Below are positions 31,810 through 36,112 of a stretch of 46,475 nt of DNA, one piece after another. The stretch covers positions 1-46,475 of the forward strand of contig CANKQY010000011.1 of NCBI GenBank assembly GCA_947485745.1. Reading direction: 5' to 3'. A model generated the notes under the pieces. That model made no database searches. It worked only from the letters and a program-made list of their open reading frames with translations, and had not been told where the DNA came from. A program made the translations under genes and the position numbers. Every line of letters begins with the position of its first letter. The stretch's first letter is position 1. Source of the stretch: Bacteroidota bacterium (lineage in GTDB: Bacteria; Bacteroidota; Bacteroidia; UKL13-3).

Positions 31810-32553
31810 ATGGGTTATATGGGTAAAACAAGTAAAGCATTCATTAAAAAATTAGTACAATTGAAAGATTTCATTTGGCGGATGGCCATACTTTCTTTTC
31901 AGGTAAGCTTGTTTTTCATTATCATATATAGAATGCTACCCGTTCCAATTACACCTCTTCCGCTCGTAAGGGTATTTGAGCAGGCATTTGGCGACGATCC
32001 AGTTAGGTTAAATAAAGATTGGGAAAGCATTGAGAGTTTAGGCAAAAATATCTGTTTGGCTAGTTTAACTTCTGAAGACCCTAAATTTTTCCAGCATCAC
32101 GGTTTTGATTTTGAGCAAATAATTGAATCATTAAAGAAAAGTTTTGATAAGGGAAAAAGACCAAGAGGTGCTAGTACTATTAGCCAGCAAACTGCTAAAA
32201 ACTTGTTTTTTACTCCATCTAGGAGTTGGATTAGAAAAGGCCTGGAAGTATATGTTACCGTTGCGCTAGAATTATTTTGGACAAAGAAAAGGATTTTGGA
32301 AGTTTACCTGAATATTATTGAAATGGGCAATGGAATTTATGGTGCAGAGGCAGCAGCATTATTTTACTTCAATAAATCGTCTTTAAATTTAACTACGCGC
32401 GAGGCAGCAGCAATTGCTGCATGTTACCCAAATCCAAGAAGGTGGAAGGCAAATAAACCATCGAAATACATAAGAAGGAAACAAGAACTCATTGTAAGGT
32501 ATATGTACAAAATTGGTCCTTTACCGTGGGAGAGGAAGTCAAAAAAGAGGTAA
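31810..32553 (+). CDS. mtgA: Monofunctional peptidoglycan glycosyltransferase
   Basis: Polymerises lipid II into glycan strands at the outer face of the inner membrane. The 247-residue product has one membrane segment (about 25-42) and a GT51 domain. The catalytic glutamate is Glu89 in LTSEDPKFFQHHGFD. The second motif is GASTISQQTAKNLFF (about 119-133), followed by RKGLEVYVTVALELFWTKKRILEVYLNIIEMG and the FNKSS-type region. There is no transpeptidase domain, so it is the monofunctional type. An ATG three codons downstream is an alternative start. A strong bidirectional terminator follows. Confidence 0.95.
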   Translation: MGYMGKTSKAFIKKLVQLKDFIWRMAILSFQVSLFFIIIYRMLPVPITPLPLVRVFEQAFGDDPVRLNKDWESIESLGKNICLASLTSEDPKFFQHHGFDFEQIIESLKKSFDKGKRPRGASTISQQTAKNLFFTPSRSWIRKGLEVYVTVALELFWTKKRILEVYLNIIEMGNGIYGAEAAALFYFNKSSLNLTTREAAAIAACYPNPRRWKANKPSKYIRRKQELIVRYMYKIGPLPWERKSKKR

Positions 32554-32592
32554 AAAAAGTACTCCTTACAAATTTGTAAGGAGTACTTTTTT
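32552..32592. terminator. Bidirectional terminator, perfect 28-bp palindrome
   Basis: Positions 32559-32586 read the same on both strands (14-base half-sites, centre between 32572 and 32573). They are flanked by seven A on the left and six T on the right. It lies between the convergent mtgA (ends 32553) and the OmpA-family gene (ends 32591) and can terminate both. Confidence 0.92.
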
Positions 32593-34093
32593 ATTTATTA
32601 TCTCTTAGATTCTGGTCACCAAGCCTAGGCCGACGTTTTTGAACAGGTCTAATAATCCTAAATTCTACTTTTCTATCTAAGCCTTCAGTGCTCATTTGAT
32701 ATTTTTGAACATATGGGTCTTTTGAAGAAAAAACGAGCATTCTATCTTTATCAATTTCGTATACTTTGAACAATTTCCTTTTAACCTCCAATGCTCTTCT
32801 TTCTGCCAAAGTTAGTTGAGTTAAATTAGGCTTATTGTTATCGGCATGCCCAATTATTACTAATTTAGCGGAAGTATCAACCAGAAGAATCCTCGCTATT
32901 TGCTGTAACAAATTATATTGCTCAACATGCACCGTAAAATGATTTGGAGGGAAGATAATTGTTGGTAAACCATAACCACTTTTACTTATAGTAACAAATT
33001 CTGTTTGAGGTATAGAATCATTTAATTTGTATATTAGCTCTGATGAATCATTATAACCGTTACCACCGGCAATACCTGAAGGGAAATATAAGCCAACAGA
33101 TTTATTAAAACCATATGGATCTGGATCTATTGAATCTGGAATACCATCATCATCACTGTCTAGGGTAACACCTTTGGCATCAACCTTAAAGCCTGGTTTT
33201 GTTTCCTTTTCTTTATCCAGGTAATCAGGAATACCATCTTGATCAGTGTCTAATTTCATGGCTTCAGCCTCATCTTTGGCGTTTTTCAATTCACGATAGA
33301 TTTTATCTACGGGGTTACTCCAATCAATATGTGTAGGTTGATTTTTACTAGTGATATTATAAACGATACTAGCCACAAAATAACCATTACCATCTTGCAA
33401 GGTACCAGATTGTGGTGCCAAATCAAGGTTGTCATTTGTACCAATATTATAATTAAACTCACACCCAATATCTATATTTTTGGTTACTTTTCTTTTGTAG
33501 CCGAAGGTTAATGGCAAAACAAGGAAAGATTCGTTAATTGTGCGCGTAACACCTGATGGAGTATCAGGGTTTTGTCTAGAGCCGTTTATAGATTCCCTGC
33601 TTAAACCAAAACCAAAATAAAAATTATTTTTCGGAAAACTTTGACGAAAATCAACTCCACCTAAATTAAACAATAGTTGCAAATTGATATTGCTGACATC
33701 TGTTTTAAAGTAGGAGTTGGTAACACCATTTTTAGAGTCTGGGCCACCGGAGAATTGACCTTGAAGATATTGCAAACGTAAACCCATGATGTGGCTAAAT
33801 GAATATTTAGCAAAAAAGCCAAATCCGGGATATATTGCATCGGCCTTTACATCCCCAGAAAAAAAAGTCATACCAAAATTAACTCCAAGTGCCACTTTAC
33901 CATAACTGGTCTCTGGAATAATATTCATGGTATCGGAATCCTTTTTGGGTTTAGGTTTACCTTTTCCAGAATCGTTTAGCACGCTCATATCTGGCGCATC
34001 TAGCTTCCCTTCCGACCCTTTTTGGGGCGTGTTTTGAGCCAAAGAAATAGTGGCAAACAAAACTAAAAATGATATAAAAAAATTGGCTCTCAT
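32591..34093 (-). CDS. OmpA-family outer-membrane protein with calcium-binding repeats
   Basis: The 500-residue product has a signal peptide (ending SLAQ, residue 20) and an eight-strand-like barrel region (about 45-255). Thrombospondin type 3-like repeats follow (DTDQDGIPDYLD and DSDDDGIPDSIDPDP, about 280-325). A C-terminal OmpA domain binds peptidoglycan: LVIIGHADNNKPNLTQLTLAERRA, then VFSSKDPYVQKY. The barrel ends in THIDWSNPVDKIY, a motif shared with the upstream gene. It probably ties the outer membrane to the cell wall. Its start is 87 bp after the end of the SPOR-domain gene, so the two may share a transcript. Confidence 0.9.
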   Translation of the reverse strand: MRANFFISFLVLFATISLAQNTPQKGSEGKLDAPDMSVLNDSGKGKPKPKKDSDTMNIIPETSYGKVALGVNFGMTFFSGDVKADAIYPGFGFFAKYSFSHIMGLRLQYLQGQFSGGPDSKNGVTNSYFKTDVSNINLQLLFNLGGVDFRQSFPKNNFYFGFGLSRESINGSRQNPDTPSGVTRTINESFLVLPLTFGYKRKVTKNIDIGCEFNYNIGTNDNLDLAPQSGTLQDGNGYFVASIVYNITSKNQPTHIDWSNPVDKIYRELKNAKDEAEAMKLDTDQDGIPDYLDKEKETKPGFKVDAKGVTLDSDDDGIPDSIDPDPYGFNKSVGLYFPSGIAGGNGYNDSSELIYKLNDSIPQTEFVTISKSGYGLPTIIFPPNHFTVHVEQYNLLQQIARILLVDTSAKLVIIGHADNNKPNLTQLTLAERRALEVKRKLFKVYEIDKDRMLVFSSKDPYVQKYQMSTEGLDRKVEFRIIRPVQKRRPRLGDQNLRDNK

Positions 34094-34180: not shown

Positions 34181-36112
34181 CTATTGTTTATTGTACATAT
34201 AAATCCAAGAATCTGCATCAATTTCTTTTCTAGCTCTTCTTAATGATTTCAATGCTTCGTTTTTATCCTCAGTAGAAATGATAGACATTCTCAACATTTT
34301 AGAGTTAGCAGAGCTTCTGTATATGCTAGGCTCAAATCCTTTGTTCTCCAAACGAGCCTGGTTAGCAAGGGCAACAGATAATTTGTTAACACTATAACAT
34401 GCTACAATTACATTGTATTTAGAGGGTGGAGGGGTAACATCATCATTAGCAACATAAGGTTTTGGATCTCGCGTAACAACAGGTGCTGGAGGTGTTGGAA
34501 CTGCTTGAGGTATTTGAGGTGCTGGTGCTACTGGAGGTGTTTTTGGAGTTTGTTCTGGAGTTGGAACAATTGCTTCAACAGGCTTAGGAGCTGGCACGGA
34601 ATCAACAACCGCAGTTACTAGAACAGGCTCTGGTGCAGAAACAATCACCATTCTAGCAGTATCAATATTAGGCTCTTGAACTATTGGCTTTTCAATTACA
34701 GGTAATTGCTCAATGGTGGTTGTCTTATCTCTAAAATTATTATAATTTTGATAAGCCCAATCAATATGCACCTTGTCTTTGGTGGTTCCAATTTTATAAG
34801 TAACACCGGTATGTAGGTATAAACTACTGTTTAAAGTTGCCTTTGACCCACCTTGATCAATATATTTTGATTGGGTATAATTTAGATCAGCACCTGCTAT
34901 AAAATCAAACATATAATTGATGTATTTTCTAGCTTCGTAACCAATAATTATTGTTTGTATACCTGGACTTTTAAATAATTTCAAATCTTTAGTACTAGAG
35001 CCATCAGCAAAAGTTGCATCACCTATAGCGGTGGTAAAACCGGCTCCCAAAATAGCATAATGGTTCCAATCTTTCATTGCTTGCGGCTCACCACCTAAAT
35101 TTCGCACGTTAAAAAAAGCACGTAAACTATATTGGCTTAATTTGGTTTTAAATTCTTTTACAGCATCTGGTGTTCCTTTTTTCGGTGTTCCAGAAATATC
35201 TTGATCACCTGCTACCCCACCACGAGTATAATTAAATTGTAAACCCATTGAACTAGTGAAAGAGTGTCTTAAACCTAAACCGAACATTCCTGTAAAATTA
35301 TATCCAACAGGTGTAAACAATATAGGAACGCCAATGGTACCATCAAGAGCCCATTTGCTATACAATTTTTGACTTTCTTTTGGATCTTGAATATTTTTAT
35401 GGCGCCAATCCACCAAATTATTCCAAGGTTTGGCGCCAAATTTTATACTTACACCTGCGTAGAAATTAAGATAATTGTCTAATTTCGGATTTGATTTTTC
35501 CTTTAACCCATCTAAAGAGTATGTTTCACAAATATGGTATTCCATGCCGCCGTATAAATCTAAATTAGCATTGATATAATAACGTGTGCCCAAACCTATT
35601 TGGTAATCTCTGTAAGGTTTCCCGAATTCAGTTGATTGTGAATTGACTCCATTCGCTAATTGTAACGAGGGCTTATAAAAATTATAACTAACACCCAAAT
35701 TCAAAAAAGGCAACCACTTGCTTTCTGGTCTTTTATTTATACCAAAAATATTATAGAGGTTATAGTAAACTACTGCTCCTAGACCATAAACTGGCGTTCT
35801 GTATCTTATAACATCTGAAGCAGTTCCGTCTAGAGTTGGTTTTGGCGAATTGCCTGTTGCGTTATTATAAAAAGTATTCGAACTTAATTTTGCCTCTAAG
35901 GACCAAGTTTTGTTAAATGAATACCGCACAGAAGCACCATAAATACCTATCGGTTTTGACTTTACACTAAAAAATGTAATAGGCACACCCAATCCTATAC
36001 CTACAGACAATTTCTTGGGTTGGCTTTGAGCAAAAATATTCATTGAAATACAGAGAAGCAAGACAGATAAAGAGCCTATTCTCCTGTATATTGAGTAATT
36101 TTTAATTGTCAT
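34181..36112 (-). CDS. Double beta-barrel outer-membrane protein with SPOR domain
   Basis: The 643-residue product has a signal peptide ending about IFAQ (residue 29). Two similar barrel modules follow (about 35-237 and 255-452). Each starts with a GVPI-x-F motif and ends in a V/I-D-W motif. A proline-rich linker (about 495-565) leads to a C-terminal SPOR domain (YNVIVACYSVNKLSVALANQ onward), which in other proteins binds peptidoglycan strands lacking stem peptides. The reading frame continues 28 codons upstream, but the start at 36112 gives the proper signal sequence. A TATTTTTG -7-like element lies at 36130-36137 on this strand. The function is unknown; a wall-linked outer-membrane role is inferred. 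Confidence 0.82.
   Translation of the reverse strand: MTIKNYSIYRRIGSLSVLLLCISMNIFAQSQPKKLSVGIGLGVPITFFSVKSKPIGIYGASVRYSFNKTWSLEAKLSSNTFYNNATGNSPKPTLDGTASDVIRYRTPVYGLGAVVYYNLYNIFGINKRPESKWLPFLNLGVSYNFYKPSLQLANGVNSQSTEFGKPYRDYQIGLGTRYYINANLDLYGGMEYHICETYSLDGLKEKSNPKLDNYLNFYAGVSIKFGAKPWNNLVDWRHKNIQDPKESQKLYSKWALDGTIGVPILFTPVGYNFTGMFGLGLRHSFTSSMGLQFNYTRGGVAGDQDISGTPKKGTPDAVKEFKTKLSQYSLRAFFNVRNLGGEPQAMKDWNHYAILGAGFTTAIGDATFADGSSTKDLKLFKSPGIQTIIIGYEARKYINYMFDFIAGADLNYTQSKYIDQGGSKATLNSSLYLHTGVTYKIGTTKDKVHIDWAYQNYNNFRDKTTTIEQLPVIEKPIVQEPNIDTARMVIVSAPEPVLVTAVVDSVPAPKPVEAIVPTPEQTPKTPPVAPAPQIPQAVPTPPAPVVTRDPKPYVANDDVTPPPSKYNVIVACYSVNKLSVALANQARLENKGFEPSIYRSSANSKMLRMSIISTEDKNEALKSLRRARKEIDADSWIYMYNKQ

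Follow-up and report, generated by a model that had tools for sequence, protein, structure and literature searches.

In the present study we identified, in a window of 46,475 nucleotides (the whole stretch of DNA that was analysed) from a Bacteroidota genome, a gene for a protein, P0001, in which two duplicated modules, each predicted to form an 8-stranded barrel, are followed by a flexible, Pro-rich, presumably periplasmic linker and a divergent SPOR domain. We consider it probable that P0001 ties the outer membrane to the peptidoglycan.

The open reading frame comprises 643 codons, with the ATG at 36112 and the stop at 34181 (Table 1). No lipobox was seen on reading the signal peptide. The landmarks by which an earlier note on this DNA had delimited the two modules were all recovered, since GVPI-x-F occurs at residues 43-48 and 261-266 and the modules end near VDW (234-236) and IDW (450-452); the Pro-rich linker that the note had placed before the C-terminal domain is equally evident, with 25 Pro in residues 453-565. 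D235 and W236 of the inter-barrel linker are invariant (17 sequences). Pfam PF13505 matches P0001 with an E-value of 3.9e-10 over residues 16-225. Sequence searches against solved structures gave no match for P0001 at E-values up to 1 and mostly designed helical proteins for a relative, and the 46,475-nucleotide window had no Rfam match at gathering scores.

Table 1. Features of the two-barrel gene and of its ompA neighbour, with positions given in the window and residues in the encoded protein.
Feature	Position	Strand	Basis
Two-barrel SPOR protein P0001, 643 aa	34181..36112	(-)	open frame; full-length relatives at 28-67% identity
Signal peptide, residues 1-29, end NIFAQ	36026..36112	(-)	sequence reading; model helix 3-27; Q29 nearly invariant
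Predicted barrel 1, residues 31-227, 8 strands within 35-224	35432..36022	(-)	AlphaFold2 strands; structural matches over 31-227; PF13505
Barrel 1 beta-signal AGVSIKF, residues 219-225	35438..35458	(-)	pattern in 22/22 sequences
Short inter-barrel linker with VDW motif, residues 228-248	35369..35431	(-)	predicted periplasmic (model, alignment)
Predicted barrel 2, residues 249-447, 8 strands within 254-441	34772..35368	(-)	AlphaFold2; OmpA model Z 17.6 over 249-447
Barrel 2 beta-signal TGVTYKI, residues 435-441	34790..34810	(-)	pattern in 22/22 sequences
IDW motif and Pro-rich linker, residues 448-562	34427..34771	(-)	pLDDT <50 at 466-526, 531-560
Divergent, putative SPOR domain, residues 563-643	34184..34426	(-)	model topology; Z 8.4, 7.3; Pfam sub-threshold
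P0002: single predicted 8-stranded barrel ending HIDW, Asp-rich repeats, OmpA peptidoglycan-binding domain	32591..34093	(-)	Pfam, model

The self-alignment proposed in the earlier note bore out its tandem duplication. Aligned as a single pair, residues 29-240 and 246-456 share 22.7% identity over 203 columns (E 2.5e-13), and their score of 52.8 bits stands against a maximum of 25.4 bits in 300 shuffles of the second module. Moreover, the family profiles of barrel 1 and barrel 2 align over 201 columns with an E-value of 3.6e-36 and a probability of 99.93. At the level of sequence comparison the duplication of the module is statistically solid.

An AlphaFold2 model of P0001, built from 22 sequences (mean pLDDT 76), predicted eight strands in each module, with block pLDDT of 77-95 inside the barrels, and disorder from about residue 466 to 560; how the domains lie relative to one another is undefined, the pTM of the model being 0.50. 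Taken alone, residues 31-227 and residues 249-447 each matched 8-stranded outer-membrane barrels in structural alignment with Z of about 15-17.6, the matches being an OmpA model (17.6), NspA (16.6), OmpA with a nanobody (16.4) and OmpW (15.1). The BAM-type beta-signal has the consensus x-G-x-x-hydrophobic-x-hydrophobic, and this pattern closes both modules in all 22 sequences. Side-chain alternation in the predicted strands averaged 3.7 versus 2.2 in shuffled strands; the signal is uneven, one barrel 1 strand scoring 0.86, and 8% of single-strand shuffles reach the observed mean. Structure prediction thus agrees with the two barrels in one chain claimed in the earlier note, and by prediction P0001 is a multi-barrel outer-membrane protein, with two separate transmembrane barrels. 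Neither of the outcomes that the note had named against its own reading, periplasmic beta domains or a single larger barrel, is favoured, since separate 8-strand modules are predicted, large barrels do not superpose on them (see below) and each module bears a beta-signal. We infer that both barrels insert into the outer membrane, with which the signal peptide and the two beta-signals are consistent.

With regard to the C-terminal domain, the SPOR domain named in the earlier note is supported at the level of the fold; the Pfam SPOR score of P0001 is 15.1 bits, below the curated cut-off of 21 bits. SPOR matches were found in 11 of 22 family members at E-values up to 0.1; among eight other relatives, three (L021, L022, L024) pass the cut-off, three (L003, L020, L023) fall short of it and two (L027, L029) have no match. 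The predicted order at residues 566-641 is strand-helix-strand-strand-helix-strand (block pLDDT 64-80, the last block 49). In structural alignment, residues 563-643 match the SPOR domain of CwlC with Z 8.4 (73 residues, 2.2 A) and that of DedD with Z 7.3 (75 residues, 3.2 A), the latter lying in the range below 8 that may reflect merely common arrangements. The predicted structure therefore supports a SPOR fold for the C-terminus of P0001. A search of PDB chains by sequence with the SPOR-domain profile returned no SPOR chain and gave chance matches to pentatricopeptide and reductase chains.

The SPOR domain of RlpA is described as contacting glycan through Q270, the backbone at A273, F274 and arginines including R309 (PMC6895207). 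The position of the conserved Gln, which contacts denuded glycan, is occupied by Ile or Val in all 22 sequences of the P0001 family and the aromatic position by Tyr in all 22 (both matched by motif spacing); an arginine at the likely R309 position (matched by motif) is kept in 21 of the 22. The SPOR sequence L084 from the same genome, as well as L085, was left out of the SPOR alignment (A5). It might be argued from the lost Gln, from the Pfam score under the cut-off and from the absence of SPOR chains among the profile matches that the barrels are as predicted and that the divergent SPOR domain no longer binds peptidoglycan, having taken a protein partner instead or having lost its function. 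We regard this as unlikely, though worth keeping in mind, given that the fold and the apparent R309-equivalent arginine are kept and that mean majority identity is 0.60 in the SPOR domain versus 0.44 in the linker. The fold appears to be kept and the glycan-binding site is partly changed; wall binding by this putative SPOR domain is likely. Highly improbable, in our view, is an arrangement in which both modules combine to form a single barrel of 16 strands, a porin-like channel with its anchor in the wall. Artificially fused OmpX repeats reportedly form larger pores, and the lowest Foldseek E-values for P0001 belong to larger single barrels (FadL, OmpG, porins) aligned across both modules; however, these alignments are no real superpositions, with TM of at most 0.19 by model length and 0.29 by target length and rmsd of at least 16 A among the matches listed. 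In both the model and the VIA alignment there are two modules, and an 8-stranded barrel matches each of them along the length of the module; each module ends in its own beta-signal, and there are relatives that retain one module together with the SPOR domain.

A relation to type IX secretion (T9SS) has likewise to be weighed. The NCBIfam PorG model matches P0001 with 45.8 bits (E 5.7e-12) and hits both barrels in the genome scan (34.8 and 18 bits), a YLD motif, noted on reading between the final two strands, is reminiscent of PorG, and the same genome carries SprA, GldM and PorG. P0001 might thus be a PorG-related accessory that links the outer-membrane side of the secretion machine to the wall. 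We consider this quite doubtful, since 45.8 bits is far under the equivalog cut-off of 130 bits for PorG, a true PorG is encoded elsewhere (contig C12, 144.1 bits) and reading of the open reading frames of 28-42 kb brought up no recognisable T9SS gene. Moreover, the OmpA neighbour P0002 matches the PorG model too, so that such a match marks the barrel superfamily. The PorG match is hence read as shared barrel ancestry and not as PorG function: by profile, P0001 and the PorG/DUF6089 barrels belong to the same superfamily, and P0001 differs from PorG by its duplication and its added SPOR domain. The C12 locus (L076, 427-2235) contains two tandem PorG-like genes, one with 144 bits, above the cut-off, and one with 123 bits, just under it; they are followed, by reading, by an undecaprenyl-diphosphate-synthase-like gene and a BamA-like gene. 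On contig C19 (L081, 907-2958), a 684-residue protein combines a beta-helix-like N-terminal part (by reading) with a PorG-like C-terminal barrel (26.3 bits).

According to the tether that we propose, P0001 would be exported by Sec, each barrel would be folded by BAM through its own beta-signal, and both would come to sit in the outer membrane. Since a barrel with an even number of strands has both termini on the same side, the linker and the SPOR domain would be periplasmic. The linker could let the putative wall-binding domain reach the peptidoglycan and so hold the membrane to the wall, its grip being perhaps where glycan has been stripped of peptides, as at division sites. P0001 probably works beside P0002, whose related barrel bears a different wall-binding domain. 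The OmpA of E. coli has been reported to couple the outer-membrane lattice and the wall (PMC11648852). The genome of P0001 has nine OmpA-domain matches (one with stop codons), so the P0001 tether would be one of several; it also has five TolB matches, all below the cut-off. A bolder version is offered tentatively and may well be wrong: a double barrel arisen by duplication of the whole module, with a BAM signal on each part and a SPOR domain that aims it at peptide-free glycan, would form a barrel-borne tether of the division site, with forms of zero, one and two barrels at one chromosomal place.

Solan et al. are said to have described natural multi-barrel outer-membrane proteins in 2021, with GfcD/YjbH as the example. 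Such proteins were indeed proposed in that year (PMC8592465, PMC9603273), and the GfcD model is described as having a 12-stranded and a 13-stranded barrel separated by an alpha/beta domain (PMC8592465). P0001 has in common with GfcD/YjbH the presence of at least two beta-barrel domains within a single chain; it differs from GfcD in that its barrels are homologous, 8-stranded and OmpA-sized, stand in direct tandem and are joined to a SPOR domain. With OmpA-type tethers (E. coli OmpA, P0002) it shares the 8-stranded barrel, the linker and a cell-wall-binding domain, with the difference that there are two barrels and that SPOR takes the place of the OmpA domain. RlpA, FtsN, DamX and DedD, SPOR proteins that belong to the outer membrane or the division site, also carry the SPOR fold after a long flexible linker. 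They are anchored by a lipid or by one helix, whereas the predicted anchor of P0001 is its barrels and its glycan-binding residues are only partly kept. Multi-barrel outer-membrane proteins are already in print, and what was not found described among the titles and abstracts listed by our search for SPOR-barrel and multi-barrel proteins, a search that mostly covered literature outside subscription journals, is the tandem pair of homologous 8-stranded barrels together with SPOR. Barrel evolution is commonly discussed in terms of hairpins that are amplified inside a single barrel (PMC6340704). In P0001, unlike in hairpin amplification, the repeated unit appears to be an entire 8-stranded barrel, retained as a second one.

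P0002, of 500 residues, is the next gene on the strand of P0001 (Table 1). Its model has eight strands within residues 67-246 and a C-terminal part of low confidence. PF00691 is present in P0002; P0001 gave no match to it at E-values up to 1 and does not belong to the OmpA family in this sense. All 24 loci from named records stem from metagenome-assembled Bacteroidota, three of the records naming ponds, and they represent 22 genomes, since L074 and L075 are apparently the other ends of the genomes of L063 and L064. An ompA gene adjoins the SPOR gene in 22 of the 24; in the remaining two (L063 and L064) the contig stops within the SPOR gene. The gene order ftsY-rimO-bshC-trmH-[SPOR gene]-ompA is kept throughout the genus wherever the contig covers it, and in G022, G027, L067 and L069-L071 trmH was the only one of these genes recognised on that side of the SPOR gene. 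No OmpA neighbour was found beside the one-barrel SPOR genes of six genomes (G026, G028, G019, G032, G436, G438), so the partnership of SPOR and OmpA is not general. A transglycosylase-like gene, mtgA-like by reading, lies at 31810-32553, convergent with ompA. It adjoins ompA in 14 of the 24 loci, and the flanks of about 4-5 kb of L067 and L069-L071, which are from other genera, yielded no copy; we give it no weight because within the genus it travels together with a block of unrelated genes and because it was not recognised in these four loci.

The survey for the same domain order that the earlier note had suggested showed two barrels plus SPOR to be kept in relatives down to 28% identity. 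Of the 64 genomes of the family-level group, 25, the source genome included, carry both barrels and SPOR in one intact frame, and with three more in which the frame is split by contig ends the count is 28 of 64; an artefact or a chance fusion is rejected on these counts. In a class sample of 395 genomes, scored with at most three candidates per genome, 27 had any match, 15 of them outside the family, and none of the matches outside the family spans both barrels. Eleven of these 15 (all except G206, G260, G293 and G396) were inspected: by reading, five are OmpA-like, four HU-SPOR-like, one PorG-like and one a short SPOR protein, and none among the eleven is a barrel-SPOR fusion. A search of viral contigs yielded no relative.

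Two-barrel forms stand beside trmH in genus g1 and in G022, G023, G027 and G421. One-barrel forms stand beside trmH in G034 and G427 (of genus g5, like the two-barrel G022), in G026, and in G019, G032, G436 and G438, where two one-barrel SPOR genes flank trmH; in G028 a one-barrel gene lies about 4 kb from trmH. The SPOR gene is absent from this site in G004, G024 and G035, and trmH there adjoins ompA. In G011, whose ompA is 94% identical to that of the window, two short fragments of the SPOR gene are left in about 440 bases. This remnant (L136, 2730-2852) has short matches to residues 219-243 and 346-372 side by side, with ompA and trmH to either side; in this draft assembly it looks as though two Asp-Trp sites had been brought together by a large deletion. 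One genome of the same genus lacks the gene and another has a remnant of it, so the gene seems dispensable; its absence from sister genomes would suit a component that is helpful without being essential. The relatives with two, one and no barrels at one place, which rest on draft assemblies throughout, constitute a natural series for asking what the second barrel adds to a wall tether and how BAM deals with an internal beta-signal in a chain.

The origin of the second barrel was addressed with a tree of 78 modules, in which the OmpA barrel of G024, the partial barrel of G025 and the barrels of G427, G436 and G438 were not included. The program warns of long branches, and several single-barrel joins lie on such branches. 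The branch that has barrel 1 on one side is supported at only 72/64. As for barrel 2, 22 of 23 rows group at 98/97, and this kind needs two changes. Seven of eight single barrels fall on the barrel 1 side (93/93), and that of G034 pairs with barrel 2 of G023 (93/97). Because each kind of barrel groups across genera, the duplication looks older than the genus. A fusion of the SPOR gene with the adjacent ompA as the source of barrel 2 is not favoured: the profile of the OmpA barrel matches barrel 1 with E 5.1e-12 and barrel 2 with E 1.3e-19, versus 3.6e-36 between the two barrels themselves, and the OmpA barrels are set apart in the tree at 100/100. The second barrel may have come either from an internal duplication or from the joining of two tandem single-barrel SPOR genes. 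In genus g2 (L048, L050, L138, L139), two single-barrel SPOR genes flank trmH and are possible raw material for a two-barrel fusion.
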